Source: Pseudohongiella sp.
GTDB taxonomy: Bacteria; Pseudomonadota; Gammaproteobacteria; Pseudomonadales; Pseudohongiellaceae
Assembly (NCBI GenBank): GCA_030651695.1
Contig: JAUSCD010000019.1
Location: 1-64,000 of the forward strand
DNA: 64,000 bases
Direction of reading: 5' to 3'
Shown: piece by piece, positions 1 through 15,191 of the stretch
Numbering within the stretch: position 1 is the first letter of the stretch
Layout: each line of letters begins with the position of its first letter
The notes under the pieces: model-generated
Seen by the model: only the letters and a program-made list of their open reading frames with translations
Database searches by the model: none
What the model was told of the DNA's origin: nothing
Translations under genes and position numbers: made by a program

Positions 1-131
1 AAGCGTGAGGACTGTCTGAGCTCCGAGCCCGCGGAGCGGGCGAGGGCGAGTTCCGCAACGCCGGGCGCCCCTAAGAGGATGCGGCCGGTCTGCTGCAACA
101 ACCCGCTCCCGTTGCGGCCCCACCCCGATCA
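1..131 (+). repeat. Structured element copy A (3' part only)
   Basis: This is the right half of the roughly 200-bp palindromic element described under copies B-F; the left half lies before the window. The inner segment has an apical hairpin CCCGC-GGA-GCGGG around 28-40, a C(GNA)G-type loop. The right outer arm, 29 bases at 87-115, has the same sequence as the right arm of copy B. The copy sits immediately past the 3' end of the His-rich protein gene on the minus strand. Assignment rests on direct alignment with the five complete copies in this window. Confidence 0.85.
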
Positions 132-178
132 ACCTCAACCAGCCCCCGCTATGGAGAATGCCAGCCAGAAGCTAACCC

Positions 179-832
179 TCAGTGCTGATGCCCACCAAAA
201 CCGCCGGTCGCCATCATCAGATGATGCGGCTGATGGTGATTGCCCTGAACCATAAAACCCGCGAACCCAAGCCCACGGATTTTTGCCACGTCATTCGCAT
301 GGTCAGTAGTGACCACCAAGGTCACACCATTTGCCAACTCCGATGTTGCCGCTGACCAGCGGCTGTCCTGACTGACCTGACGGGCGTGTGCGGTGACCAT
401 ACGTTTGATCGACGCTGCAGTCTCGGTATCTCCTGTCACGGTATATCGCATACCACCTTCGATTTGCTCACCAGCTACTTGTGCGTACAAGGTCACACGA
501 TGCATATCCACCAAGTGATCACGCAGCGCATCAATATTAACTTTTGACCAGTCGGTTGCCGGGTCCGCACTCAGAATAGAGACGATCTCCTGAATGGCAG
601 CAAAGGCGTCCTGACCCGCCTGTGTGGGCTGCGTAGCGGCCGCGGCATGATTCATCGTTTGCTGACCGCCCACTTGATGAGTCATGTGGCCGGCATGTTG
701 ACTATGATCGGGTTGCTGAGCCTGAGAGCCACCGTGTTGGCTGTGATCGGCTTGCTGGGCAACAACTGCGGTGCTCAGTACTGCAGCGAATGCGAGTGTG
801 CCTGTGAAGGCGAGTGCGTGAGTGAGTTTCAT
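179..832 (-). CDS. His-rich exported protein, possible metal-binding
   Basis: A 217-residue protein with a clear Sec signal peptide (basic start, hydrophobic core to about residue 23, AVVA then QQ). Residues 26-70 are rich in His and Gln and contain DHSQH twice (29-33 and 42-46). The C terminus is again His-rich (HHQPHH at 199-204, terminal GGHQH). Between them lies a roughly 110-residue alpha/beta region I cannot assign to a named family. The ATG at 832 has an AGGA-type ribosome site seven bases upstream. It is divergent from a Crp/Fnr regulator with an HCH motif, so a periplasmic role in binding copper, zinc or nickel is a reasonable inference, not shown. Confidence 0.75.
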   Translation of the reverse strand: MKLTHALAFTGTLAFAAVLSTAVVAQQADHSQHGGSQAQQPDHSQHAGHMTHQVGGQQTMNHAAAATQPTQAGQDAFAAIQEIVSILSADPATDWSKVNIDALRDHLVDMHRVTLYAQVAGEQIEGGMRYTVTGDTETAASIKRMVTAHARQVSQDSRWSAATSELANGVTLVVTTDHANDVAKIRGLGFAGFMVQGNHHQPHHLMMATGGFGGHQH

Positions 833-911
833 GAGGGATCCTTGATGATTTCAGATATTTGTGAAAAAGAGTCTAGCTCTCTTACCCGCATTTACCTATG
901 ATCCGAATCAT

Positions 912-1535
912 ATGACATCAGATCTCGACAAACTTCTTGGATTGCTCTCGGCAAACCAATACCCCCAAAAAACACTGCAGGCCGGGGAACACCTGTTCCG
1001 GCAACACCAACCAGTTCACGCAATTTTTGGCGTGAAATCCGGGCGCGTGCGCTTGTACCGGGATTTGGCAGACGGATCCTCTGTGACCCTGCACGTAGCC
1101 CGGACAGGCACTGCATTTGCTGAGGCCACCTTGTTTGCCGAACGTTACCACTGCCATGCCATTGCCGAGATCAACAGCATTGTAGTCACACTGGACAGCG
1201 CTGAGGTATTAAGGGCAATGTCACTGAACCCCGACCTGGCGATCAACCTCAGCCGTCAGCTGGCAGCTCAGGTTCGCGACATGCGCGCCCTGCTGTCACT
1301 TCGAGACATCCGGTCTGCAGACGAGCGCCTTCTGGCATGGCTGCGCCAGAGAGCAAACAGCCAAACTTTGACGATATACCTCGACAGAACCTGGACAGGT
1401 ATTTCAGAAGAGCTCGGACTCAGCAAAGAGGCTGTCTATCGCAGCCTGGCAAAGCTTCAACAACAAAACATAATCCTGCGCCAGCGAGACAAGATGAACA
1501 ACCACGAAACCATAACATTGCATCACCCACCCTGA
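912..1535 (+). CDS. Crp/Fnr family transcriptional regulator
   Basis: A 207-residue protein if started at the ATG at 912. A GTG at 861 would add 17 residues that do not resemble the family; neither start has a good ribosome site. Residues about 15-120 are a cyclic-nucleotide-binding beta-roll (GEHLFRQHQPVHAIFGVKSG), and 160-183 a winged helix-turn-helix (TGISEELGLSKEAVYRSLAKL). It lacks the FNR cysteine set. Tyr-His-Cys-His at 79-82 is a possible metal or redox site. About 80 bases separate it from the divergent His-rich exported protein, which it may control. Its stop codon lies inside repeat copy B. Confidence 0.85.
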   Translation: MTSDLDKLLGLLSANQYPQKTLQAGEHLFRQHQPVHAIFGVKSGRVRLYRDLADGSSVTLHVARTGTAFAEATLFAERYHCHAIAEINSIVVTLDSAEVLRAMSLNPDLAINLSRQLAAQVRDMRALLSLRDIRSADERLLAWLRQRANSQTLTIYLDRTWTGISEELGLSKEAVYRSLAKLQQQNIILRQRDKMNNHETITLHHPP

Positions 1536-1743
1536 TCCGGAGTGAGCTACGGGAGCGGGTTGTTGCAGCAGACCAATCAGGCCGCGCTTATCCTCTGAGG
1601 AGGTGCCCGAAAAAGCGTGAGGACTGTCTGAGCTCCGAGCCCGCGAAGCGCGCGAGGGCGAGTTCCTCAACGCCGGGCGCCCGCTCAGAGGATGCGGCCG
1701 TCTGCTGCAACAACCCGCTCCCGTTGCGGCCACACCCCGATCA
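1533..1743 (+). repeat. Structured element copy B
   Basis: A complete copy, about 211 bp, between two convergent genes. The outer left arm is GCTACGGGAGCGGG... (29 bases, 1546-1574) and the right arm 1698-1726. The left strand carries the conserved AATCA bulge just after the outer arm and a second short bulge (GCTT). An inner arm (ATCCTCTGAG...) precedes an apical hairpin with a C(GAA)G loop. Pairing extends outward to TGATC/GATCA, so the TGA stop of the Crp/Fnr gene is the first base triplet of the element. This copy is the least perfectly paired (one A.C, one G.G, one T.T). Confidence 0.9.
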
Positions 1744-1750
1744 AAAACAG

Positions 1751-2437
1751 TCAACGCCGCAACACCATCAACCAGCGCCCGATATTGAGAATACTCGCCA
1801 AAGCACCCGCAAAATAAGTTAAAGCAGCCGCCTTCAAAACCTGACGGGCCCCCTTGTGCTGCTCCTCAGTAATGTACTCACCCTCAATCAAAATCGGCAG
1901 CGCCTTGTTAAAACTCGCATCCCATTCCTCAGGTAAAACAATCAGATACGCCATCGCGCCCAAAAGCTGAAGAATAATGCTCAAACCAATCACGACACCT
2001 ATCGCGATGGGTGAGCGCAGTACAATCGCTGCAACGGGCACCGACATCATTAAAGCCACGCCCCACTTACCCAGCTTTGAAGCCAACGGCATGTACTCCT
2101 TGCGCAACTCAAATATTTTCTCATTGCGGAAGCACTGGATAGCGTGACCTACCTCATGAGCAGCAACCGCTACTGCGGTTACCGAACGGCCGTGGTAGTT
2201 GCTCGGGCTAAGCCGCACCGCTTTTGCAGCCGGATCAAAGTGATCACGCCCCTCGTCAGTCTCCTCGACAATAAAACCTTCCAGCTGAAAGCGCTGAACC
2301 AGATGATTCGCCAGTTCACCACCTGTGCCTCGCATATCAGGGTCCTCACGGTGATGTTTTTTCATCACATGACGCACCCACAGTTGGGGAAAGTAAGCGC
2401 TGATGATCAGTAAAAGTCCGAGTACTGCAAAAATCAT
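1751..2437 (-). CDS. YugP-like membrane zinc metallopeptidase
   Basis: A 228-residue protein of the neutral zinc metallopeptidase family PF04298 (B. subtilis YugP). It has an N-terminal membrane anchor (about 2-18), the zinc-binding HEVGH motif at 94-98 following SVTAVAVAA, and two further hydrophobic segments (about 120-165 and the C-terminal 205-225). Length and layout are normal for the family; the physiological substrate is not established. Its 3' end abuts repeat copy B and its start is 28 bases from the Fur box that serves the divergent small gene, so it may also be iron-responsive; that is inference from spacing. Confidence 0.88.
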   Translation of the reverse strand: MIFAVLGLLLIISAYFPQLWVRHVMKKHHREDPDMRGTGGELANHLVQRFQLEGFIVEETDEGRDHFDPAAKAVRLSPSNYHGRSVTAVAVAAHEVGHAIQCFRNEKIFELRKEYMPLASKLGKWGVALMMSVPVAAIVLRSPIAIGVVIGLSIILQLLGAMAYLIVLPEEWDASFNKALPILIEGEYITEEQHKGARQVLKAAALTYFAGALASILNIGRWLMVLRR

Positions 2438-2464
2438 AGTGTGAAATTACCCATTTACTATTTA

Positions 2465-2483
2465 AATGATAATCATTATCATT
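2465..2483. promoter_or_regulatory. Fur box (perfect palindrome)
   Basis: AATGATAATCATTATCATT is a perfect 9-1-9 palindrome containing the ideal 7-1-7 Fur core TGATAAT-N-ATTATCA. It lies between divergent genes, 21 bases before the ATG of the 63-residue protein and 28 bases before the start of the YugP-like protease. Iron-dependent repression by Fur is the expected behaviour of such a site; no Fur gene is in the window. Confidence 0.9.
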
Positions 2484-2503
2484 TGATGCGGGAGGTAGCC
2501 AAT

Positions 2504-2695
2504 ATGTCTGGATATCTAATATACGCAAAATTGCAGGAAGGTAGACCTGTTTTGCAGGTTGTTGATGCTGATACGCAACGCGTTTGCCTGAATTGGGATT
2601 GCCCGTCTGTGCAGGACGCGGGGGCGCCTGAGGTACAGAAGTTGTTTCGGCAGCTGATGTTGCTGACTTGTCGGCAGTCTTTGTTGGGTGGCTGA
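2504..2695 (+). CDS. Small Fur-box-controlled protein, unknown function
   Basis: A 63-residue protein starting at the ATG at 2504, chosen because GGGAGGT lies seven bases upstream; an upstream in-frame start at 2441 would run through the Fur box and is unlikely. No signal peptide, membrane segment or recognised domain is visible. It has two cysteines (LNWDCPS and LLTCRQS) and a charged, soluble composition. I do not recognise the family. Placement directly behind a perfect Fur box implies expression under iron limitation, so a role in iron uptake, sparing or signalling is a guess from context. Confidence 0.7.
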   Translation: MSGYLIYAKLQEGRPVLQVVDADTQRVCLNWDCPSVQDAGAPEVQKLFRQLMLLTCRQSLLGG

Positions 2696-2702
2696 TTCTA
2701 AA

Positions 2703-2762
2703 AACACTCTGATCAGGAGGCGCATCGGGCGCGGGTGACCGCACCGGACGCTGATCTGTGTT
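2703..2762 (-). terminator. Hairpin terminator between convergent genes
   Basis: AACAC-TCT-GATCAG pairs with CTGATC-T-GTGTT across a GC-rich loop that contains a second small hairpin (GGTG/CACC). Read on the minus strand the stem is followed by GTTTTTAG, so it can end transcription of the acyl-CoA dehydrogenase operon and back-stop the small Fur-box gene. Confidence 0.55.
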
Positions 2763-2796
2763 GGCGACTACCGTGCCCAATCAGGACTTGGGACTA

Positions 2797-3942
2797 TCAG
2801 AATCCCCGCAGCGTAGCGTACCGGTCGCGATGAAACAGTGCATCCCCCAGCGTCTGCTGCGCCACGCGCGCCCGCTTCAGGAAGAAACCAAGATCAAACT
2901 CATCAGTCATACCGATGCCGCCATGCATCTGCACACCCTCGTTGCTGATCAGGGCAGAGACTTCTGAGAGTTTGGCTTTGCACATACTCGCCAGCGCGGG
3001 AATGTCTTCGGCTTCGTCGCCTCGATCAAGTTCGGACAGCGCTTTTCGTACCAGGGATTTGCACAACTCAACCTCTGAGTACATCAGAGCCGCGCGATGC
3101 TGCAATGCCTGAAACGCGCCAATCTGTACACCAAACTGTGTGCGTTGTTTCAGGTAATCTACGATGCGATCAAATACTTCCTGGATGCTGCCCAACATTT
3201 CAGCGGACAGACCAATACGCGCGATATCCAGTGTGCGCTGCAATGCGGGCCAGCCGGCGCCTTCAGCGCCCATTAATGCATTCGCCGGCACTTTGACCTT
3301 GTCAAAACTGACATTGGCGGCGCTGCGACTATCGACCATACTCAGCGGCTGGATGCTGATCCCTGGGGCATTGACGTCCACCACAAACAGACTGATGCCA
3401 TCGGTATCACCCGCTTTGCCTGCACTACGCGCCACTATGACAAAATGATCCGCGGCTGCAGCATCGAGTACAAACTTCTTGTGGCCACTCAACTCATATC
3501 CATCAGCAGTTTTCACCGCGCTGAGTGCTACCTGCGCCGGATTGTGGAAAGCGCCTTCCTCGAGTGCAAACGCCACAATGGATTCGCCGGAGGCAATAGC
3601 AGGCAACAGCGCCGATTTTTGTGCCTCGCTTCCCGCCAGATTAATCGCGGTGGCACTCAACAAAACGGTTGATACCAGCGGCGCTGGCACCAGGGTGCGA
3701 CCTGTTTCTTCCAGCACTATGCCCAATCCGGAATAACCGAACTCAAAACCACCGTAGGCTTCCGGGACAGTCATACCTGCCCAACCCAGCTCCACCATGC
3801 TCTGCCAAAGTTCTTTGGGGTAACCCAGCGGATCTTTTGTGTCGCGCATTTTCCGTAGCACCGCAACCGGCGCCTGCTCTCGACAGAAACTGCGGGCGGA
3901 TTCCTGCAACATCACCTGATCTTCATTAAATACTAATGACAT
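2797..3942 (-). CDS. Acyl-CoA dehydrogenase family protein, small-subunit type
   Basis: A 381-residue acyl-CoA dehydrogenase fold protein: N-terminal helical domain, beta middle domain and C-terminal helical domain with MHGGIGMTDEFDLGFF near residues 339-354. It lacks the YEGT motif carrying the usual catalytic glutamate near the C terminus, ending instead in a short tail. This is typical of the partner subunit in heteromeric acyl-CoA dehydrogenases such as steroid side-chain FadE pairs. It lies 14 bases downstream of the other dehydrogenase in the same operon, so a heterotetramer acting on a bulky or branched acyl-CoA is likely. Start ATG with GGGAG upstream. Confidence 0.88.
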   Translation of the reverse strand: MSLVFNEDQVMLQESARSFCREQAPVAVLRKMRDTKDPLGYPKELWQSMVELGWAGMTVPEAYGGFEFGYSGLGIVLEETGRTLVPAPLVSTVLLSATAINLAGSEAQKSALLPAIASGESIVAFALEEGAFHNPAQVALSAVKTADGYELSGHKKFVLDAAAADHFVIVARSAGKAGDTDGISLFVVDVNAPGISIQPLSMVDSRSAANVSFDKVKVPANALMGAEGAGWPALQRTLDIARIGLSAEMLGSIQEVFDRIVDYLKQRTQFGVQIGAFQALQHRAALMYSEVELCKSLVRKALSELDRGDEAEDIPALASMCKAKLSEVSALISNEGVQMHGGIGMTDEFDLGFFLKRARVAQQTLGDALFHRDRYATLRGF

Positions 3943-3956
3943 ATTGTGCAGCTCCC

Positions 3957-5207
3957 TTATAGCTTGCCGCTTTGTTTTTCGATCATGGAGGTCATGTCGG
4001 GCAAGCCGAGCACACGTTTGGCGATCACATTCAGCTGTACCTCGTAGGTACCACCTTCGATCGAGTTACCTTTGGAGCGCAGCCACTCGCGTGCGACTGC
4101 CAACTCTTCGCTGGCAAAATCGGAAGCATCCTCTGTTAAGGACTCCCAGCCCAGTGCCTGAGTACCCACCGCCTGCAACAACAATTCATAACGACGTTTG
4201 TTCAGCTCACAGCCATAGTTTTTTAACATGGACGAGGTGGCGTTGGGGCCCTTGCTGAGTTTGGCTTCCTGAGCAGAGCGCTGCGAGGTTAACGCAAATG
4301 CCTCGCTGTCTATTCTGAACTGGGCAATCTGATCGCGCAGCGCCGGGTCAGACAATTTGTCTGTGTCGCCGCGATACTTCATGGCAGTCTGCTCGAGATT
4401 GCCGCTGAGTCCGCCACGATTATTGCGACCACTGGTGAGACCAAAGCCGGAGATCATGGTGCGTTCGTGCTGCAACAGACGTTTGGCAATGGTCCAGCCG
4501 TCATTCAGACGACCCACAACATTACCCGCAGGTACGCGCGCATCATCAAAAAACGTTTCGCAGAACACCGAATTGCCGCTGATTAATTTGATTGGTTTGG
4601 TGGTGACGCCGGGGGTCTGCATATCAAACAGAATAAAGCTGATGCCGTTATGTTTTGGTACATCAAAATCCGTGCGCACCAGACAGAAAATCCAGTCGGC
4701 TTTGTCAGCGTACGAGGTCCATATTTTAGAACCGTTAATAACGTAGTGATCACCATCCAGGATAGCTTTACATGCCAGACCCGCCAGATCAGAACCTGCA
4801 CCGGGTTCGCTGTAGCCCTGACACCAGCGGATTTCACCGCGCACAATTTTCGGAATATGTTCCAGCTTCTGCTCGTGTGTTGCCATTTCCAGTAACACCG
4901 GCCCAAGCATACTGATACCAAAACTGACCAGCGGCGGCCGCGCGCTGATGCGCTGCATCTCTTCCGCAAGAATCAGACTCTGTGCCTTGTCCAGGCCACC
5001 ACCGCCATACTCAGCCGACCAGGTCGGGCAAGTCCAGCCCTTGGCAGCCATACGATCCAGCCACAGTTTGCTGTCAGGATTTTTGTACACGGCGTGACGA
5101 CCGCCCCAGACCACTTCGTCCTCGGGTGCCGGTGTACGCATGGATGCTGGACAGTTCTCCTCCAGCCAAGCGCGTGTTTGCGCGCGGAATGATTCCAGAT
5201 CAGACAA
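3957..5207 (-). CDS. Acyl-CoA dehydrogenase family protein, large-subunit type
   Basis: A 416-residue flavoprotein from the TTG at 5207, preferred because GGGGAG precedes it by seven bases; a TTG at 5231 has no ribosome site. It has the flavin-contacting CQGYSEPGAGSDLAG and IWTSYADKADW segments of this superfamily. The C-terminal motif is EGGTYEVQ, which puts glycine where medium-chain enzymes have the catalytic glutamate of YEGT. A glutamate in LLQHERT of the middle helices could serve instead, as in long-chain/isovaleryl-type enzymes; that is inference. First gene of a two-gene operon with the smaller paralogue. Confidence 0.88.
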   Translation of the reverse strand: MSDLESFRAQTRAWLEENCPASMRTPAPEDEVVWGGRHAVYKNPDSKLWLDRMAAKGWTCPTWSAEYGGGGLDKAQSLILAEEMQRISARPPLVSFGISMLGPVLLEMATHEQKLEHIPKIVRGEIRWCQGYSEPGAGSDLAGLACKAILDGDHYVINGSKIWTSYADKADWIFCLVRTDFDVPKHNGISFILFDMQTPGVTTKPIKLISGNSVFCETFFDDARVPAGNVVGRLNDGWTIAKRLLQHERTMISGFGLTSGRNNRGGLSGNLEQTAMKYRGDTDKLSDPALRDQIAQFRIDSEAFALTSQRSAQEAKLSKGPNATSSMLKNYGCELNKRRYELLLQAVGTQALGWESLTEDASDFASEELAVAREWLRSKGNSIEGGTYEVQLNVIAKRVLGLPDMTSMIEKQSGKL

Positions 5208-5356
5208 GATGTTGCTCCCCTGTTTTGCCAATTGTTGTCGTTATAAATCGATTATCGAACGGCCACTCGAAGTGTAGCAACCGCTGCTTTGACAAGCCAG
5301 ACAGGAAAATGACTGGAACGGTGATTTGTGCAGCTAAAAATAACGCTGAGGTTTAC

Positions 5357-6247
5357 TCAGCGCGCCATCTGCCTGATCAACCTCGGCAGGCGCCCATCAA
5401 TAAACATGAGCCCGACAAAAATGACAATCATGCCCACAACATGCGAGGGCAGAATAACTTCTCCGAGAAACCAGAATCCGAGAAAAATTGCTGAGATCGG
5501 CGCAATCAACGTGGTTGTTGAGAAATTGGTGGCGCCCACTTTTGGCAACAAGCGATACATAATCTGAAAGGTAAAGGCAGTGGAGATCAGTCCGATTGCC
5601 AACGCTGCCATCCAGGTTGTCGGCAACAGCATCACTGGCAAACCCTCGGCCACCAGGGCCACTGGCACCGACACGACGGCAGCACCTGTCAGTGCAATAG
5701 ATGACAGAGCCGTCGCTTCGACCATACGGAAACTGCGCGCAATATTCAGCGCCAATGCATAACACAGCGTCGCCAGCAAACAGGCCGCAATCGCCCACAA
5801 CTTGGAGTTACCCTCCATCTGCAAAGCAGGCGAAGCCAGAATCGCCACCCCCGTAAATCCGGCAACAACCCCAACTGCCTTGGTCCAGCTCATGCGCTCA
5901 CCGTTCACCCAGTAATGCGACACAATCACCGTCATGATGGGTGTCAAAGCATTCACAATCGCCGCCACACCACTGGCCAGATTAGCTTGTGCCAACGGAA
6001 ACAGTGCAAACGGAATCGCATAGTTCAGCACACCCAACATGCCCAATTTAAACCACAGCATCGGCTCACGCGGCACTGCCTTGCCGCGCACAAACAGAAA
6101 CAGCCAACAGCCCAGCGCCCCAATGCTGACTCGCAGCGCCGTCACCCACAACGGCCCCAGTTCACGAATCAACAAAGCATTAAAAATAAACGAACCGCCC
6201 CAGACTGCTCCCAAAAACACAATCCAGAACCACTGACGAGTAGTCAT
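5357..6247 (-). CDS. EamA/DMT-family transporter
   Basis: A 296-residue inner-membrane protein with about ten hydrophobic segments in two EamA repeats (residues about 5-138 and 150-285), the usual drug/metabolite-transporter layout. The opening WFWIVFLGAVWGGSFIFNALLIRELGP is characteristic. Such proteins export amino acids, purines or drugs; substrate cannot be read from sequence. ATG start at 6247. Transcribed alone: 125 bases separate it from the acyl-CoA dehydrogenase operon and repeat copy C lies upstream of its promoter region. Confidence 0.88.
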   Translation of the reverse strand: MTTRQWFWIVFLGAVWGGSFIFNALLIRELGPLWVTALRVSIGALGCWLFLFVRGKAVPREPMLWFKLGMLGVLNYAIPFALFPLAQANLASGVAAIVNALTPIMTVIVSHYWVNGERMSWTKAVGVVAGFTGVAILASPALQMEGNSKLWAIAACLLATLCYALALNIARSFRMVEATALSSIALTGAAVVSVPVALVAEGLPVMLLPTTWMAALAIGLISTAFTFQIMYRLLPKVGATNFSTTTLIAPISAIFLGFWFLGEVILPSHVVGMIVIFVGLMFIDGRLPRLIRQMAR

Positions 6248-6356
6248 GACGCGACACCAAAAAGAAAACGCACGAATTATGCGCCTCTTTCAGCAATCGT
6301 CACAGCCGTTTCTTGCTGTAATGCAGAACCCACCACAAGCTGTATCGAAAAGAGAA

Positions 6357-6550
6357 CCGGAGTGAGCATCGGGAGGGCGCCGTGACACCGGACCAATCAG
6401 GCCGCGCATATCTTCTGCGTGTCCGACCGAGAAAACGCGAGCACTGTTCGAACTCCGAGTGCGCAGCACGAGGGTGAGTTGCGCAGCGTCGGTCGGGCAC
6501 GCAGAAGATGCGGCCGGTCCGGTGTCACGGCGCCCTCCCGATGCGGCTGG
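6357..6550 (+). repeat. Structured element copy C
   Basis: The cleanest copy. The outer arms 6366-6394 and 6516-6544 are a perfect 29-bp inverted repeat (GCATCGGGAGGGCGCC...). The left strand then has AATCA unpaired, GGCCGC pairing with GCGGCC, a second four-base bulge, and an inner arm ATCTTCTGCGTGTCCGACCG that matches its partner except for one T.G. The apical hairpin is GTGC-GCA-GCAC. The copy occupies most of the 340-base gap between the DMT transporter start and the TetR gene end. No other feature was seen in that gap. Confidence 0.92.
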
Positions 6551-6587
6551 CCCAGATCGAAACTCGCAACAGCATCAACCAGCACTC

Positions 6588-7253
6588 TTAGACCCACTCC
6601 GCCCGACCCAGCTTCTCCCGATCAAGCGCCGCCGCCACCCAGAAATCAAACGCAGCAAACACACACTGCTCACGCGTCATACCGACTTTCTCAAAAGTCT
6701 TGCGACGCGCAGCATCTGTCATCAACGTAAAATAACAAGCCCAGGCAAACTCAACATCCACATCATCACGCAGATAAGGCGTCAGCCGCTCACGCATTGC
6801 CCGCATACTTTCATACAGAGAATCGATATAAACTTTATACAGATCCGGATAACCGGTTTTAAGATCCAGCCAGAACGCTGTTGAATACTGAGCATCGTTT
6901 TCTACCCACACCTTGATGCGGTAACGCAGGATATCCATCAGGTTGTCAGTAGCATAGGCAGTAATGGGTTTATGAACCCGGGCCTCCCACCGCACAATCA
7001 GTTCATGCACCAGGTCTTCCTTGTTAGTGAAGTACTTGTACAACGTCTTGGTGCTCATGCGCAGAGAACTGGCCAGTTGCCCCATTGAAATAGAACGAAT
7101 ACCCAACACTTTGGCCTTGCGCGCAAACTCATCCACAATCTGGTTTGCCACGCAGGCACTACTGTCTTCCGGAATACGGCTGACCAGTTTTTGATCCGGC
7201 TTGTCCCCCGGGACATACGTCTGTTTGTGTATTACTGCAGTATTGGATGTCAT
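6588..7253 (-). CDS. TetR family transcriptional regulator
   Basis: A 221-residue regulator with an N-terminal helix-turn-helix about residues 50-80 (MGQLASSLRMSTKTLYKYF then TNKEDLV) and a helical ligand domain. It carries an unusual 35-residue N-terminal extension. It is the last gene of the operon DUF1592 - DUF1552 - unknown exported protein - TetR, 15 bases after its neighbour, so it probably autoregulates that operon in response to a small molecule. The ligand is unknown. Confidence 0.88.
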   Translation of the reverse strand: MTSNTAVIHKQTYVPGDKPDQKLVSRIPEDSSACVANQIVDEFARKAKVLGIRSISMGQLASSLRMSTKTLYKYFTNKEDLVHELIVRWEARVHKPITAYATDNLMDILRYRIKVWVENDAQYSTAFWLDLKTGYPDLYKVYIDSLYESMRAMRERLTPYLRDDVDVEFAWACYFTLMTDAARRKTFEKVGMTREQCVFAAFDFWVAAALDREKLGRAEWV

Positions 7254-7268
7254 GACTCTTCGTTTCTC

Positions 7269-8528: not shown

Positions 8529-8547
8529 GGACCTCTCCCCCTGAGCC

Positions 8548-9903
8548 TTAGGCTATCACGTCGCTGACAGCTCTGGCCGTACGCATGGAGCCGGTGCCAA
8601 ATTCCCCTGCCGGAGCGCCAGCAAGTTGCATCGCAGTTAACGACACACGCGTTACTGACTCACCGGGCGCGTGAATATGCTGCCCCGCTTTGTGACGTCC
8701 GCCCGCGCCACCTGCCAACATCATGGGGATATTCTCCAGTGAGTGGATCTTGGCATAACCGGTGTCGCTGAATGCCAGCACCAGACAGTTATCCAGCAAG
8801 GTGCCACTTCCCTCTTTTATGGCGTCCAGCTCTTCCAGGAATGCCCCGAACCCTTCCATTACCAAACCGGCAAGCTTGCTGGTTTCAGGCTGATAACCCA
8901 GCTGCGCATGCGTAGGTTCGTCATGCGTAATCTGGTGGTATATTTTGCTTTGCCCCGCAATATAGGTTTCCGAAGTACCGCCTGTATGAACAAAGTTGAA
9001 GACGCGGGATTGATCACATGCAAGACCCATAGCAAGCAAGCGCGCCATCACGCGGGTATTACTGTTGACCACATCAACTGATCCGGCCCGCTCGAGCTCT
9101 GAAGGTGAACGCGGTAGCACACAGGCATCACGAGGTTCCGGACGCTGTAATTGCACTGCCAGCTGATTCTCCATCTCGCGCAGCGACGTAAAATATTGCT
9201 CTAGCTTGATCTGATCCTCGTGACCCACGCTGCGCATCAGCGAATGGCGCTGATCGGTGACGGCAGATAACACACTCTGACGCAACATAATGGCCGGATC
9301 CGGCGCCCAGTTTTCGCTGTTGGGATCCTGAAAACCTTCGCCAAACAAACGCTGATACAATGCCAGTGGCGACTGATCCGGAGATGCAAAGGTAGAGCCG
9401 GTCCGGGTTGAATAGCTTACTGGACGTCTCGACACTGAAGCATCAATGTCCAGCACTTTAAAGCGGGTTGAACCGCCTATGGCGTCTGCAACTTTGGTAT
9501 CCAGCGTGGCTCCGTCAAAACGACCACTGGCTGCCGGTGCCACACCCGACAGAATGGAAGCATGCCCGCTCCAATGCACCAGATTCGGCCGGGTGTCAGG
9601 TATCGCCCGAAAACCGGAAAACACCGAAACTTTGTTTTTTAACGCTGCAATTGCTTCCAACTCAGGTGTAATTTCATAATCAAAACCGGTTTTTTGTGGC
9701 ACCCAGCGCGTACCACCTGCTGGCGTATCAGTTAGCCCCAAACCCCAGAAATAGGTACCAAACCGCGTAGGAATAGTGCTGCCGTCAGCATAAGCATTCC
9801 CGTTTTCATTAAGAAAAAGATTCAGCATGGGCAGACCCAGACTGACCGTTGCGCCTCCAAGCATGCCCTTAAGCAGTGAACGACGATTGATTTTTTTACT
9901 CAT
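8548..9903 (-). CDS. DUF1552 domain protein, probable Tat substrate
   Basis: A 451-residue protein of family PF07586 (DUF1552). The N terminus NRRSLLKGMLGGATVSLGLP is a twin-arginine-type signal. The body is alkaline-phosphatase/sulfatase-superfamily-like in tone (conserved HWSGHASILSG near residues 123-133, and SDTGYAKIHSLENIPMMLAG near 385-404), a comparison I make cautiously. The family is almost always encoded next to DUF1592 cytochrome-like proteins, as here (20 bases downstream). Biochemical function is not established. ATG with GGGGAAT upstream. Confidence 0.85.
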   Translation of the reverse strand: MSKKINRRSLLKGMLGGATVSLGLPMLNLFLNENGNAYADGSTIPTRFGTYFWGLGLTDTPAGGTRWVPQKTGFDYEITPELEAIAALKNKVSVFSGFRAIPDTRPNLVHWSGHASILSGVAPAASGRFDGATLDTKVADAIGGSTRFKVLDIDASVSRRPVSYSTRTGSTFASPDQSPLALYQRLFGEGFQDPNSENWAPDPAIMLRQSVLSAVTDQRHSLMRSVGHEDQIKLEQYFTSLREMENQLAVQLQRPEPRDACVLPRSPSELERAGSVDVVNSNTRVMARLLAMGLACDQSRVFNFVHTGGTSETYIAGQSKIYHQITHDEPTHAQLGYQPETSKLAGLVMEGFGAFLEELDAIKEGSGTLLDNCLVLAFSDTGYAKIHSLENIPMMLAGGAGGRHKAGQHIHAPGESVTRVSLTAMQLAGAPAGEFGTGSMRTARAVSDVIA

Positions 9904-9923
9904 GATTCATTCCCCTGCTGCTG

Positions 9924-11600
9924 TTATTGGGCAGATGCTGCACTGGCCACGTTATTTGTGTTTTGTTGCGCACCTTGCGGTATCACCACGTTAAAAAACT
10001 CCGGCGTCAGAGCAATCTGACTGAACAGTGCCGGCACGCGATAACCATTCTCTGCAAAACGCTCAATCTGTGTATTGATGTAAGGGCGTTCAGCACTGCC
10101 GGGCATACGCGCAGCCCCATAGGCATACACATTTCGCACCAGACACGACGACGCCCGGGGATCGTTGTAGAGGAATTGGCCCAGACCCTGTGCCCCGACA
10201 AACTTATTGCCAAACAAGTCAGCGTTAACATCAATCAACTGGCCATTCTCGTACTTGCGTAGCTGCCCCATACCGTCAAAATGCTCCAGCGCCAGACCAG
10301 GCGGATCACTGCGCTGATGGCAGACAATACATCCCGGATTGCTCATATGATCCAGCAGGCGCTCACGCGAAGTGGCAGCGCTGCTGTCGACCACTGAAGA
10401 GAAATCTACGTCAGCCGGCGGCTCAGGCGTGTGTTCACACAGGAAAATCTCGTGCAGCTTGATGCCGCGGATTGTTGGCGACGAAGTCCCCGGATGCGCG
10501 TAAAGCGACAGGAAACCTATTTGAGAAAATATGCCAGAGCGCTCCGCCGAATCGGGAAATGTGTAGGGTGCCCACTCTTCACTGGACGCAAACGGCACCT
10601 GATAAACTGCAGCCAATGGTCGATTGAGGAACGTCTCATTGGAAGTAAAAATCTCGCGATAATCACGCTCTTTCACAACCAGCAAATCAACCAGTGTTCT
10701 GATCATTTGCTGTTGCGCGCTATCTGCCACCAGCTGATTGAATTTGGGATAGATGGTGGCATCTTTAATCATGCTGTCGAAACCATCAATCTGCATCATG
10801 TCGACCAGAAATGCCTGTATGCCGTCCTGCACCCGGGGCGAACTGCTCAGGCGCTGCACCTGAGCATTTAACCCGTTTTCCGTGTGTAACTCACCACTGC
10901 GTGCTGCTGCAAGCAACTCTTTATCAGGAGAGGTGTTCCAGAACAGATAGGATAGTCGTGACGCACGCGACCAGGCATCCAGTCTCCAGTTATCAGCATT
11001 CTCAGGATCAGGCTCTGCGCGCTCGATACGAAAGAGGTATTCCGGTGCCGTTAACATACTGCTCAGGGCCAGCTGCAGCCCGGTATAAAAGTCACCTGAT
11101 TGTTCAGTGCCAAGTGCAGCAGCGTCCAGTCTTGCTTCCACTTCAGCAGAGCTCAGAGGGCGACGGAATAACTGCTCACCATAAGTGCTGATAAATTGCT
11201 CCGCGCACACCCGATCAAATTCAGCCGGGGAGGCAGGAGCGCAAGGCATTACCGCGTGACGCATCTGCTCACTGAAAACCTGCCTTGAGATGTCCAGCGA
11301 CAGGTTGAAGTACTGCTCAAACCCCGCCGCTGTCAGCGACAGCGTAGCGCTACCCAGCGCCAACAGGCCGATTTCACGGCGCTCCGGCTCAAAACGGCCA
11401 GTGATTTGAATGTCCTCACCAAAAATATCCTCAATACTTTGACGATACTGGGGCTCAGTGAGGCGGCGCACGGCAACAACCACAGGTTCTTTGTGAGTTG
11501 CCAGGGTTGAGTCATCTGCTATGACAACAGTGCTGTGGGCTGCCACATGCAGCACTACTCCCACAGACAGCGTCAAAACAAACAGGCGAGCTGATTTCAT
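9924..11600 (-). CDS. DUF1592-family multidomain protein with one CxxCH haem site
   Basis: A 558-residue exported protein starting at the ATG at 11600 (signal MKSARLFVLTLSVGVVLHVAA); an upstream in-frame extension runs into a repeat and is rejected. Domains follow the order DUF1587 (about 40-70), DUF1595 (120-190), DUF1592 (205-330), DUF1588 (350-450) and DUF1585 (460-535). A single CIVCH in DUF1588 is a c-type haem motif, so the protein may carry electrons in the periplasm. First gene of the operon with DUF1552, an unknown exported protein and TetR. Such sets are best known from Planctomycetes; function remains unknown. Confidence 0.85.
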   Translation of the reverse strand: MKSARLFVLTLSVGVVLHVAAHSTVVIADDSTLATHKEPVVVAVRRLTEPQYRQSIEDIFGEDIQITGRFEPERREIGLLALGSATLSLTAAGFEQYFNLSLDISRQVFSEQMRHAVMPCAPASPAEFDRVCAEQFISTYGEQLFRRPLSSAEVEARLDAAALGTEQSGDFYTGLQLALSSMLTAPEYLFRIERAEPDPENADNWRLDAWSRASRLSYLFWNTSPDKELLAAARSGELHTENGLNAQVQRLSSSPRVQDGIQAFLVDMMQIDGFDSMIKDATIYPKFNQLVADSAQQQMIRTLVDLLVVKERDYREIFTSNETFLNRPLAAVYQVPFASSEEWAPYTFPDSAERSGIFSQIGFLSLYAHPGTSSPTIRGIKLHEIFLCEHTPEPPADVDFSSVVDSSAATSRERLLDHMSNPGCIVCHQRSDPPGLALEHFDGMGQLRKYENGQLIDVNADLFGNKFVGAQGLGQFLYNDPRASSCLVRNVYAYGAARMPGSAERPYINTQIERFAENGYRVPALFSQIALTPEFFNVVIPQGAQQNTNNVASAASAQ

Positions 11601-11782
11601 GATGGGCGGACCTTTTTCTTTATTCTGGTTATTTTTTGAAATGCTGGCGCATTGAGCATGGAAAATATGATTGTTTCTATATTTTCCGTTGAGTTTGAGT
11701 CTACCTGCTTGAGTTGGGTTGTCAATATATGGGTGGCTGGATATGGGTGGCTGGTCAGAAAGCATAAGTAGCTGACAGGAGA

Positions 11783-11964
11783 GCATCGGGAGGCGGCCGC
11801 GGTACCGGACCGGCCGCATCCTCTGCGCTGTCGACCGTCGCTGCGCAACTCGCCTTCGCTCGCTTCGCGGGCTCAGAGCTCAGACAGTGCTCGCTCTTTC
11901 CGGTCGACAACGCAGAGGATAAACGCGTCCTGATTGGTCCGGCACCGCGGCCGCCTCCCGATGC
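11783..11964 (-). repeat. Structured element copy D (inverted orientation)
   Basis: The only copy on the minus strand. The outer arms 11783-11811 and 11936-11964 (29 bases, GCATCGGGAGGCGGCC...) match except one position, which is G.T when read in element orientation. The AATCA bulge is conserved, the inner arm has one T.G, and the apical loop is C(GAA)G. It lies in the 394-base gap between the DUF1592 start at 11600 and a possible 41-residue ORF. It is upstream of the DUF1592 promoter region rather than next to a gene's 3' end. Confidence 0.9.
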
Positions 11965-11994
11965 TGTGCCAGATTCCGGCTTCACTTGCTCCGA

Positions 11995-12120
11995 TTATTT
12001 CTGTTGTTCTGACGTGTAGATTGTTCTGATTAGAAGTAGCCCTATCGGCGCCATGAGCAGAAACATCAACGACCAGAGCATTGTGTAGTGCCACATTTCG
12101 TCGCCGGGCAGATGACTCAT
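11995..12120 (-). CDS. Possible 41-residue single-span membrane protein
   Basis: An ATG-to-TAA frame of 42 codons between repeat copies D and E. The predicted product starts MSHLPGDEMWHYT, has one hydrophobic segment (MLWSLMFLLMAPIGLLLIR), and ends TIYTSEQQK: a charged end, a membrane helix and an Arg at the boundary, as in genuine small membrane proteins. No ribosome site is visible. I do not recognise a family. It could equally be a chance frame; expression data or conservation would decide. Confidence 0.4.
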   Translation of the reverse strand: MSHLPGDEMWHYTMLWSLMFLLMAPIGLLLIRTIYTSEQQK

Positions 12121-12163
12121 TGAAATCGCTTTGGGATCGACACGCGCTCCGCATCACTTCAAT

Positions 12164-12355
12164 CCGGAGTGAGCAGCGGGAGGGCGCTGCAGTGCCGGAC
12201 CAATCAGGCCGCGCTTATCTTCTGGCTGTCCGACCGAAAAAACGCGAGCACTGTTTGAACTCTGAGCGGCGCAGCCGCGAAGGTGAGTTGCGCAGCGTCG
12301 GTCGGACAGCCAGAGGATGCGGCCGGTCCGGTGCTGCAGCGCCCTCCCGATGCGG
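12164..12355 (+). repeat. Structured element copy E
   Basis: Complete copy. Outer arms 12173-12201 and 12325-12353 (GCAGCGGGAGGGCGCTGC...) pair with one G.A mismatch and two wobble positions; the inner arm has one T.G. AATCA and GCTT bulges are on the left strand only, and the apical hairpin is GCGGC-GCA-GCCGC. It ends 30 bases before a second, shorter palindrome and 129 bases from the 3' end of the serine hydrolase gene. Confidence 0.92.
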
Positions 12356-12384
12356 CCATCCAAAAAAACAGTGAACCCTGTCAA

Positions 12385-12471
12385 GGCAGACTGCGTGTGA
12401 CAGAAAGTGTTTTGCAAACAATCAGGCGCGTAGCGTCGTTTGCAAAAACTTTGTGTCACCCGCAGTCTGCC
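12385..12471 (+). repeat. Long palindrome with the same plan as the A-F elements
   Basis: Left arm 12385-12419 (GGCAGACTGCGTGTGACA...) pairs with right arm 12438-12471 with two mismatches and one bulged G. At the top of the stem the left strand has AATCA unpaired, then GGCGC-GTA-GCGTC, a small hairpin with a C(GTA)G loop. The arms have no sequence similarity to copies A-F, yet the AATCA bulge and GNA loop are shared. It starts 13 bases past the stop of the serine hydrolase gene on the minus strand and could also act as its terminator. Confidence 0.8.
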
Positions 12472-12483
12472 TGCCCAGAATAA

Positions 12484-13785
12484 CTAGTCAACAATCGCCT
12501 GATTCACCACATTATGGAACCCCTCACGCAACCTGATATGACTATAAGGCCGAATCTGCGTCAGGATGATCGCCACCAACTCCTCCTCCGGATCAATCCA
12601 GAACAAAGTTCCAAAAGCCCCACCCCAGGACACAGAACCCTCAGTATCCGACGTATGCGCCACCGCCCGATCCAGCACCACCGAGTAACCCAGACCAAAA
12701 CCCATACCCGGCCCGCTGAGCCACAGCGGCAGATCCCCTGTGTGATTGGCAAAAATCAGCTCAACAGTTTTAGACCCAAGCAAACGCACACCATCCAGCT
12801 CTCCACCATTCAACATCATTTGCTGGAAACGAATATAGTCATGCGCAGTGGAAACCAGTCCGCCAGCGCCAGAGAAAAAGGCGCGCGGACCAGACACGTA
12901 ATTGCTTCGCTCATCACCAACTTCCGTCAGCATCATGCGGTTACCATTGGCAGCGTCAGGGCCATACAAAGTAGCGAAACGATTAACTTTATCCGCCGGT
13001 ATGTAGAAATGGGTGTCGTTCATTTGCAGCGGCTCGAAAATCCTTTCACGTAAGAACGTATCCAGATCGTCGCCGGAAATAACTTCCACCAGGCGCCCCA
13101 CCACACTTGTGGCGGCAGAATATTCCCATCTCGTGCCCGGCTCATAGCGAAGTGGCAACGTTGCAAGTCGCTCAGTCCAGCTCGCAAGATTTTCCTCTCC
13201 ACGCACGCGCGACACTTCAGAATAACGCGGAATATCACCACGATAACTGTTCATCAGACCAGCGGTGTGAGTCAGCATATGCGTAAAATTGATAGGGGTT
13301 TTTACTGGTTCAAGTGTCACGGAGCCATCCGCCTGCTCCACTTCCACCATCATATTTTTAAATTCAGGTAACCAGTCAGAAATAGGATCATCAAGCTGAA
13401 ACCAGCCTTCTTCATACAGCATCATCAACGCTACTGATGCAATCGGTTTGGTCATCGACGCCATCCGGAAAATAGTGTCAGTCGTCATTGGTTGATTGCG
13501 TTCAACATCCTTCATACCCTGCGCGCTGAAGTGAACCACCTTACCCCGGCGCGCCACCAGCGTCACGGTGCCGGCAACCATTTCATTGTCAATATAGCGC
13601 TGGGTAAACGCATCAATACGTTGCAACCGCTCCGCAGACATACCCACCGATTCCGGATCAGCCATAGGCAATCCAGATGCAGGGGTTTGGGCGTGAGTCA
13701 TCCAGGAAGCGGATGTCAGCGTGATGGCAGCCACCAGTTTCAATGAAATTCTCAACAAGCCATACGAATGTTTTAACTGTGACAT
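12484..13785 (-). CDS. Serine hydrolase, class C beta-lactamase / family VIII esterase-like
   Basis: A 433-residue exported protein from the ATG at 13785 (GAGGTG five bases upstream; a TTG at 13797 is less likely). After a signal peptide ending near THAQ, the beta-lactamase fold has the SxxK nucleophile in MASMTKPIAS (about 110-119), a Tyr in WEYSAATSVVG, and SWGGAFGTLFWIDP where lactamases have KTG. The WGG variant is typical of EstB-type esterases, so ester rather than lactam hydrolysis is more likely. It lies alone between palindromes and the next hydrolase gene (53 bases apart). Confidence 0.87.
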   Translation of the reverse strand: MSQLKHSYGLLRISLKLVAAITLTSASWMTHAQTPASGLPMADPESVGMSAERLQRIDAFTQRYIDNEMVAGTVTLVARRGKVVHFSAQGMKDVERNQPMTTDTIFRMASMTKPIASVALMMLYEEGWFQLDDPISDWLPEFKNMMVEVEQADGSVTLEPVKTPINFTHMLTHTAGLMNSYRGDIPRYSEVSRVRGEENLASWTERLATLPLRYEPGTRWEYSAATSVVGRLVEVISGDDLDTFLRERIFEPLQMNDTHFYIPADKVNRFATLYGPDAANGNRMMLTEVGDERSNYVSGPRAFFSGAGGLVSTAHDYIRFQQMMLNGGELDGVRLLGSKTVELIFANHTGDLPLWLSGPGMGFGLGYSVVLDRAVAHTSDTEGSVSWGGAFGTLFWIDPEEELVAIILTQIRPYSHIRLREGFHNVVNQAIVD

Positions 13786-13838
13786 CTGACACCTCAATTA
13801 TTTATTATGGTTTTTAGAACTGACGCACCCGCCCACTT

Positions 13839-14837
13839 TCAGTTATTCAAAAAACGTAGCATCTCCTGATTCAACAAATCCGGTGCTTCCAGATGTGGGT
13901 TGTGACCCACGTCAGGAAAAAGCACCAACGACCCATTTGGCAACAGATCCACGGCACGCTGAGCGGTCTGCGGATAATCAGGCCCGTCCACTGCTCCCCC
14001 AACAAGCAGCGTCGGTGTGTTGATACTTGGCCAGAAAGCATCAACTGGCAGGGCAGTCAATTGATTGTTCATTGATCTCACCAGATTCAGGCGATGAAAA
14101 TCGCCGCTCAATGCGTGGCCGTAACGAATACGCACATGCTCCATATACTCAGGACGCCAGTTCACAATGCGATTCTGCTCCTGACGAAGATTTGCTGCGT
14201 AATGCGCCTGCAGATCCGGCTCAGGCACACCTGCACTTGGTGCGCTCCAGGCACGCCCCCGCTCCGAATTATTTAGCGCAATCGGATTAACCATGATCAG
14301 ATGTGATACCCGATCAGGATAGATATGAGCATAGCTGCTTGCCAGCCGCCCGCCCAACGAGTGCCCGGCTATCGCTGCCTGCTCAATACCCAGGTGATCA
14401 AGGATAGCCATGACATTGGAAGCATGCAGATTAACATCATACGGAATGACAGGTTTTGAAGAGCGCCCCCAACCCAACCGGTCGATAGCGATCACTCTGA
14501 AGCCGGCTGCTGCCAACGCCCCCATCGTGTTTTCCCAATACCAACTGTAATAACTGCTGCCGTGCAGCAGCACAACGGCGCGACCATTGGCAGCAGCCGT
14601 CGGGGCGGCATCCATATAAGCAATGCGCACATCCTGACCATAAAGATTGCGATGCAGGAATTGCACTGGATATGGATAAGGAATCTCTTCCAGATTGATA
14701 GATACCGGCCCCCAATGGGAAGGCGGACTGTCCGACGGAGCCTGCGACAACGACACAGCAGGTAAAACAAAAAGTAGCACCGCAGCAAAAACTGCCGCAG
14801 CCATTCCGGATCGAAGCAAACGAGTCAGTCGAGGCAT
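13839..14837 (-). CDS. Exported alpha/beta hydrolase
   Basis: A 332-residue alpha/beta-hydrolase from the ATG at 14837 (GGGGA seven bases upstream; a start at 14876 lacks one). It has an N-terminal signal peptide (MPRLTRLLRSG then a hydrophobic stretch to about residue 32). Catalytic triad candidates are Ser in AGHSLGGRLASS, Asp in VGGAVDGPDYP and His in FPDVGHNPHLE. The oxyanion region is VVLLHGSSYYSWYW. Substrate unknown. Upstream of the family VIII esterase in the same direction, so the two may act together on an ester substrate in the periplasm. Confidence 0.87.
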   Translation of the reverse strand: MPRLTRLLRSGMAAAVFAAVLLFVLPAVSLSQAPSDSPPSHWGPVSINLEEIPYPYPVQFLHRNLYGQDVRIAYMDAAPTAAANGRAVVLLHGSSYYSWYWENTMGALAAAGFRVIAIDRLGWGRSSKPVIPYDVNLHASNVMAILDHLGIEQAAIAGHSLGGRLASSYAHIYPDRVSHLIMVNPIALNNSERGRAWSAPSAGVPEPDLQAHYAANLRQEQNRIVNWRPEYMEHVRIRYGHALSGDFHRLNLVRSMNNQLTALPVDAFWPSINTPTLLVGGAVDGPDYPQTAQRAVDLLPNGSLVLFPDVGHNPHLEAPDLLNQEMLRFLNN

Positions 14838-14951
14838 GCGAATATCCCCTGTTCTAATTATCGGATAGAACCACATTCAAACATGATCAACACGATCTGA
14901 CAAACCAACAGACATCCCAGCACATAAACCCGAAAAGCGCGCTGCCTGCAA

Positions 14952-15146
14952 TTCCAGAGTGAGCAACGGGAGCGGGCAGCCGCGCCGGACCAATCAGGCC
15001 GCGCTTATCCTTTAACGGGGCGCCCGAAAAAGCGTGAGCACTGTTCGAATCCGGAGCGGCGCAGCCGCGACGTTGAGTTGCGCAACGCCGGGCGCCCCGT
15101 TAAAGGATGCGGCCGGTCCGGTGCGGCTGCCCGCTCCCGTTGCGAC
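14952..15146 (+). repeat. Structured element copy F
   Basis: Complete copy. Outer arms 14963-14991 and 15115-15143 (GCAACGGGAGCGGGCAGC...) pair throughout with a single G.T. The inner arm ATCCTTTAACGGGGCGCCCG is perfectly matched although its sequence differs from copies C-E. Bulges AATCA and GCTT are on the left strand, apical hairpin GCGGC-GCA-GCCGC. It fills most of the gap between the alpha/beta hydrolase start and the alcohol dehydrogenase 3' end (46 bases away). The rest of that gap shows nothing. Confidence 0.92.
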
Positions 15147-15191
15147 TGCACTATGCCTTCAACACTAACCCAAAGTTTCAGACCAATAAAA

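Follow-up and report, generated by a model that had tools for sequence, protein, structure and literature searches.

What is preserved in a repeated hairpin whose two arms differ in sequence from copy to copy while each still pairs with its partner, and what might preserve it? The question is raised by a stretch of 64,000 nucleotides from a Pseudohongiella sp. assembly (GenBank GCA_030651695.1, contig JAUSCD010000019.1, positions 1 to 64,000; hereafter the window), whose first 15,146 positions contain a family of elements of roughly 200 bp. The original prediction, made from the letters alone, held that these elements share a fixed plan, that their arms undergo compensatory change and that a secondary structure is selected. 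The family is real: besides five full copies there is one that the contig start cuts off. The full copies all consist of 28-30 bp outer arms, an AATCA bulge, a GGCCGC/GCGGCC helix, another bulge, an inner helix and, last, the tip. The answer reached here is that a folded shape is indeed kept, and that it is the shape of one strand.

The evidence for this comes from two comparisons. In an alignment of 60 of the 61 elements gathered (one was omitted; 32 of the aligned copies served to build a covariance model, R1), double changes preserving the pair were seen in 54 of 66 consensus pairs. Cells of these pairs were paired in 94.6% of cases, against 72.5% in shuffled alignments and 34.8-44.4% when one side was slid by 1-3 columns, and 816 cells carried a double change against a shuffled mean of 224. 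Copies and copy pairs are not independent in any of the counts given here, and the shuffles retain relatedness; copies at the same genomic place were therefore compared as well. Positional orthologs with both flanks alignable comprised 73 copy pairs, 72 between species and one within the complete genome G010, giving 4152 pair cells. Among these, 604 had changed from one Watson-Crick pair to another, while one-sided differences amounted to 174 G·T, 71 A·C and 142 other mismatches; the rest of the changed cells were double changes of other kinds. The 88 distinct copies at orthologous places were 95.2% paired though their letters change, and 28 copies with flanks less than 80% identical were 96.9% paired. 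The possibility that copies drift without constraint where they stand was dropped, since the comparison at orthologous places did not bear it out. Arms that change jointly while their letters vary freely imply that the folded shape is what is kept, and the proposal that compensatory change reflects a selected shape is supported by both comparisons. Towards the tip, sequence is conserved as well: pair 102-145 alternates between C-G and G-C (35 and 24 of the 60 copies) within an internal loop that is largely invariant and which, by eye, may recall a kink-turn-like loop.

The two strands are not equivalent. With the plus strand defined as that reading ACTGTYYGA...GAGTT, a G·T on the plus strand is an A·C on the minus strand. 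G·T outnumbered A·C by 124:51 in the 60 copies (30 columns to 14), and RNA fold energy was lower on the plus strand in 52 of them. The ratio was 331:108 (40 columns to 10) in 154 copies from the genus, a set with nearly full coverage of the model in which decayed and truncated copies are under-represented. Outer arms were placeable in 67 of 181 elements overall; outside the genus this applied to 24 of 128 copies, in which the ratio was 19:1 and the outer arms measured 22-34 bases (28-32 in 20 of the 24). Because G·T exceeds A·C and the plus strand folds better, the folded form of one strand, as RNA or as single-stranded DNA, is the form that matters. The selected structure of the original prediction therefore stands as a hairpin of a favoured strand, but not as a symmetrical palindrome.

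The manner in which the arms change suggests more than point mutation with subsequent repair. Between close orthologs the differences are mostly single changes, and between somewhat more distant paralogs many compensated ones (for example, nine double and no single). Stepwise compensation through G·U favours transitions, and replacement by a random other pair gives two transversions to one transition; the compensated Watson-Crick changes between positional orthologs comprised 331 transversions and 273 transitions. Moreover, the copy at the same place was not the closest match in that genome in 61 of 144 directed comparisons, some by small margins (counted among the copies gathered rather than all copies per genome, with the pair within G010 excluded), and at some conserved sites a quite different element lies between the same two flanks. 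On both grounds, replacement of the occupant by another family member, through conversion or re-insertion, is part of the story. Copying between sites, to which the closer matches elsewhere and the surplus of transversions over transitions both point, thus helps to produce the covariation; the compensatory double changes are kept, but not solely by mutation and subsequent repair in place.

The copies are dispersed over the chromosome, between genes. When a covariance model was run over the assembly itself and related genomes, as had been proposed, many copies were recovered: a model of 137 positions gave 28 matches in the own genome (23 full, three partial and two weak reverse-strand shadows of counted copies), and 31 and 13 matches were found in the complete genomes G009 and G010, where 150 of about 1,000-1,100 first-look candidates were scored in each. 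The element was present in all 15 genomes of the genus by blastn. Across the order the spread is patchy: of 293 genomes 26 have a match, and these belong to 12 of its 118 genera. Outside the genus the common portion is the tip, whose pattern occurs in at least 118 stretches in Halieaceae, Gallionella/Nitrosomonadales, Thauera, Burkholderiales and a few others, with single records of Elusimicrobia and Patescibacteria among the matches listed. The outer arms of the Halieaceae copies shown are seemingly unrelated among most copies, yet paired. Several Burkholderiales-type copies were also seen in metagenome bins titled Bordetella parapertussis (L084, L097, L110 and similar), titles that look like misnamings.

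The reading that we favour, with about an even chance of being right, is that the elements are a dispersed, mobile-type palindromic repeat family of the ERIC, bcr1 and REP kind, whose folded plus strand is read in trans. The fixed plan, covariation, strand asymmetry, chromosomal scatter, turnover of occupants and preference for the space between convergent genes belong to the family as observed; to these we infer the addition of an enzyme, and of propagation as the force that selects shape. The plus strand would form a hairpin with an outer helix of about 29 bp of largely free sequence, the AATCA bulge, a short fixed helix and the second bulge, continued inward by a second helix of free sequence and then by a sequence-conserved asymmetric internal loop near the tip. 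A putative enzyme would recognise this folded strand, be it single-stranded DNA or RNA, in trans. Since such an enzyme would read the fold, only correctly folding copies would reach new sites or overwrite old ones, and the letters of the arms could drift freely while both arms agree. Copies would persist mainly downstream of genes, because no promoter is broken there.

Several observations weigh against this reading. No partner enzyme was found, although transposases beside copies had no systematic search, and the own genome's two Y1_Tnp genes had no element in the surrounding 2.6 and 3.3 kb; the palindromes around them were GGGGACGGAGGAG or unrelated. No target-site duplication was found at the sites inspected (p1, p2 and p4 in the window, two on contig C17 and one in Gallionella); element-free sites exist in relatives, with flanks too diverged to place the element ends. 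Viral contigs gave no matches to the core pattern, and plasmids none to copy B of the window or to a Gallionella copy; the one plasmid match, weak and 63 bases long, was that of a Burkholderiales-type copy to a Variovorax record. With no viral and one weak plasmid match, spread by mobile genomes was not seen. In addition, 26 of the 28 copies with flanks less than 80% identical are at least 93% paired, which, were there no local function, would need frequent replacement, and pairing is at least 90% in 127 of the 154 genus copies (truncated ones having been excluded beforehand), which is not what an old neutral repeat would look like. Finally, the nearest comparisons had G·T equal to A·C (8 and 9 in one set, 9 and 9 in the nearest ortholog bin), counts that are few and not independent. 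As a separate observation, the Y1 gene on contig C26 is surrounded by a different palindrome, GGGGACGGAGGAGC (L038 792-884, 1925-1977 and 2496-2579), which is perhaps the genome's true REP.

The main rival, which we regard as possible but clearly less probable and which may hold together with the favoured reading, is a role at transcript ends. The element would act in cis as an RNA hairpin, insulator- or terminator-like, that blocks convergent read-through or protects 3' ends, and would lie in plus-direction RNA just ahead of the neighbour's stop codon. It draws its strength from placement, for which gene calls were longest open reading frames (ORFs) rather than annotation. Copies lay between convergent genes in 32 of 61 cases in a first set (copies less than 600 bases from a locus end left out, three extra-genus loci, L069-L071, included) and in 28 of 44 in G009 and G010, compared with 23 of 112 background gaps of at least 30 bases, taken from sampled regions that partly hold elements. 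In plus orientation, 51 of 61 and 36 of 44 elements had their 3' side towards a gene's 3' end, the median distance in the second set being about 40 bases; three of the ten exceptions in the first set are one orthologous site with an uncalled ORF of 84 amino acids. For the 5' side the corresponding counts were 39 of 61 and 34 of 44. The head-to-head arrangement of 31 of 39 neighbour pairs within 1.5 kb and the pairing kept at orthologous places are also in its favour. Nevertheless, in tandem gene contexts the orientation preference was weak (19 to 7 and 8 to 6). The Halieaceae type showed the same lean in a broader set (47 to 14), but the Gallionella and Burkholderiales types preferred neither side (30 to 15 on either). 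Transcription of the nearest gene runs over the minus strand, while G·T favours the plus strand, and occupants are often unlike their positional ortholog. Runs of at least four T within 20 bases after the hairpin were not in excess (5 on the plus and 12 on the minus strand of 154 copies; 2 and 13 in shuffles), which counts against a transcript-end role and led to the rejection of a U-run intrinsic terminator.

The arrangement of neighbouring copies bears on a further possibility, that of an exchangeable cassette. Neighbours within 1.5 kb are head-to-head in the 31 of 39 pairs mentioned, and in 25 of the 27 pairs with less than 600 bases between them; among 21 spacers of 30-600 bases, common sequence was limited to one orthologous pair and one stretch of 32 bases. 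In one instance (G007 against G012; L061, L065) a head-to-head pair, spacer included, seems to have been turned round as a unit between unchanged outer genes, the gene upstream being presumably serA from its translation. Many pairs in genomes of the Gallionella type enclose one or two genes, called there too as longest ORFs, on 0.8-1.8 kb, and others have 40-110 bases between them. Thirteen enclosed proteins scanned against Pfam gave four matches (DUF4238, CBS, GmrSD_N with HNH, and DUF4236), and eight of them, also scanned against PADLOC, one weak match. Among the matches listed, three of these genomes (G370, G396 and G382; L112, L106 and L392) have the right-hand gene and the pair in common while the cargo differs, being a 285-residue protein without a Pfam match, a DUF4238 protein and a DUF4236 protein, and in G377 (L393) 20 bases separate the aligned flanks, with neither pair nor cargo. 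This site is a lead rather than proof, because G396 has its left flank cut off and G382 has a different one. An unlikely reading is that the hairpins are recognised as single strands by a cassette system that is undescribed and has no transposase. In it a head-to-head pair would frame a slot next to a gene's 3' end, and one cargo gene would be exchanged for another there while the pair stays. In the window's own genus, 25 of the 31 head-to-head pairs are less than 600 bases apart, and the gene inside a wide pair on contig C17 is syntenic in G001, which is without the adjoining element.

Palindrome correction, in which a template switch at replication would make one arm a copy of its partner without selection on shape, is quite unlikely to be the explanation. 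The nearly random type of the double changes is what it would give, as are paralogs that often differ by about 8-12 double changes and 0-2 single ones. However, correction predicts equal G·T and A·C left-overs, and the 331 to 108 observed in the genus copies means that it fails as the sole cause; the closest orthologs, in addition, carry mostly uncorrected single changes, and the conserved bulges, fixed spacing, conserved core and location are left unexplained. A multicopy small-RNA gene family with its own plus-strand promoter is very unlikely: the plus strand folds better and its conserved unpaired positions are A- and GA-rich, but no sigma-70-like signal exceeded that of shuffles when the 110 bases ahead of each of 152 copies were scored (for this promoter type only), and the 24 bases before the element margin showed no positional consensus; a sigma-70 promoter belonging to the element was rejected.

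Within the window, copy C occupies positions 6357-6550 (+), between ORFs 5357-6247(-) and 6588-7253(-), and its outer arms (6366-6394 and 6516-6544, located by repeat finder and fold) pair at 29 of 29 positions, reproducing the count first given for it. The AATCA bulge (6395-6399) is near-invariant across the family, the inner arm (6410-6430) pairs with 6489-6509, and the apical core (GCGAGCACTGTTCGAACTCC...GAGTTGCGCAGC, 6436-6488), strongly conserved in sequence though the original prediction did not emphasise this, is the portion common to Halieaceae and Betaproteobacteria. The DNA fold of copy C reaches -86.8 kcal/mol against a shuffled mean of -43.6 (z -13.9), and the RNA fold of copy B has a z of -10.9 against shuffles. 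Copy B (1537-1744, +; arms 1546-1573 and 1700-1727) sits between convergent ORFs 861-1535(+) and 1751-2437(-). Copy D (11779-11968, -; arms 11782-11811 and 11936-11965), which has GGACGC instead of GGCCGC in the short helix, lies head-to-head with copy E (12164-12360, +; arms 12173-12201 and 12325-12353), and copy F is at 14953-15150 (+; arms 14963-14991 and 15115-15143). By repeat finder, 28 of 29 outer-arm positions pair in F, 29 of 30 in D, 27 of 28 in B and 26 of 29 in E; in F and in D the only mismatch is a G·T, as are two of E's three. The exchange of GCATC/GATGC (C and D) for GCAAC/GTTGC (F) noted previously is correct, with B and E each having one mismatch there. That the arms differ completely was too strong a statement within this genome: the middles do differ, but CGGGAG is common to the outer arm of all five full copies.

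Copy A (1-125, +) retains only its 3' half, the 5' half being cut off by the contig start, and is 100% identical over 115 bp to a copy at an unrelated place (C23:145303); copy F is 93% identical to one at C6:67512, also unrelated in place, among the matches listed. A one-armed remnant with a single outer arm lies at 2715-2790 (-), identified by repeat finder and by comparison with relatives, of which G001, G002 and G004 have a complete element at that place and G005 one cut by a contig end. A profile search of the window beyond the first 15 kb gave no further copy. A 29-nucleotide inverted repeat at 12384-12472, between copy E and the 3' end of ORF 12484-13797, is possibly that gene's terminator. 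Elsewhere in the genome, several contigs start or finish inside a copy. At the end of contig C23 (L002 1478-1697 and beyond) the palindrome runs about 70 bases into the flanks, probably as a fold-back assembly artefact. At a synteny break on contig C17 (C17:96468; element at C17:96438-96632, L041 about 2440-2635) the segment to the left is found far from the other side in G001 and, in G002, on a different contig, among the matches listed, as if copies had recombined. In several species, short tandem repeats of the element's outer end run on from the 3' side (L068, L058 and L055).

Comparison with known systems began with RNA families. At the gathering score of Rfam 15 the window had no match, and ten loci of relatives gave two riboswitches, a 6S RNA and a tRNA and none for the element; below threshold (E up to 5) only long-hairpin models appeared, far below their cut-offs, the best for copy C being MIR918 with 31.8 of 268 bits. 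Judged by these sequence searches, the element matches no family in the RNA library used. Of the two outcomes named beforehand as refuting the original prediction, neither appeared within what Rfam and the covariation comparisons cover. The family was likewise not found in the literature by sequence stretches of 14 to 16 letters and keywords, in a coverage that most subscription journals lie outside; the papers that came up, among them one on a human gene, were unrelated or not pertinent.

Integron attC sites are recognised as a folded single strand, are free in sequence in their arms, lie just after a stop codon and have conserved outer AAC/GTT boxes. The element resembles them in that one strand forms the hairpin and the sequence of its arms is free. 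Nevertheless, attC was rejected, as no conserved AAC/GTT box is present: columns 25-27 and 212-214 of the 60-copy alignment vary, pair 26-213 being AU in 25, UA in 14, CG in 9 and GC in 3 of the 60 copies. Integron cassettes were also set aside, since the genes between the window copies are syntenic in relatives, among the matches listed.

REPINs contain inverted REP pairs, and the element is like REP sequences and REPINs in being palindromic, intergenic and found in inverted pairs. A REPIN-like composite unit was rejected: the copies are predominantly head-to-head, but their 21 spacers share almost no sequence. REP sequences are described as palindromic, intergenic and thought to be moved by a Y1 enzyme (TnpAREP/RAYT). 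PMC3733652 gives them as 20-40 bp long and tagged GTAG or CGTC. By size and tag the element is not one of them, being about 200 bp with a common end, where seen, of CGGAGTGAGC or TGGCAC(A/T)AG, and RAYT was rejected as its mover, no element lying around the two Y1_Tnp genes. The suggestion that REP- or MITE-type repeats are the nearest concept thus holds for behaviour, which resembles that of ERIC, bcr1 and REP, and does not hold for REP membership by length, tag or RAYT flanks.

Among other known repeats, the BRE of Betaproteobacteria is described in Hot 2011 (PMC3110155) as chromosomal, mostly intergenic, about 90 bp, often tandem and transcribed at one locus. At about 200 bp the element is longer by description, and BRE is the repeat most worth comparing with the Betaproteobacterial copies. 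The bcr1 repeat of the Bacillus cereus group is, according to PMC6542083 and PMC2267715, about 150 bp long, present in tens of copies per genome and able to fold, with features of a mobile element and a TTTAT motif tied to mobility in print; by description, the element differs in belonging to another phylum. ERIC sequences are 127-bp intergenic repeats of a class that yields highly base-paired transcripts, according to PMC2229807, a table of which gives TA at the termini and target duplication. Compared by description, the element is longer and has arms of free sequence, and neither TA termini nor a target duplication was seen for it at the sites inspected.

The family offers a natural covariation experiment, with many arm pairs, one conserved tip and many copies per genome in two proteobacterial classes, and its covariance model would aid annotation, because copies are where contigs of this assembly start or stop. 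Should a protein read the folded strand, the family would amount to a new mobile system that reads structure; should the shape act locally, convergent genes would have a boundary of a new kind between them. The element is not a REP, is not in Rfam 15 and is not attC-like at its ends, and it behaves like ERIC, bcr1 and REP.

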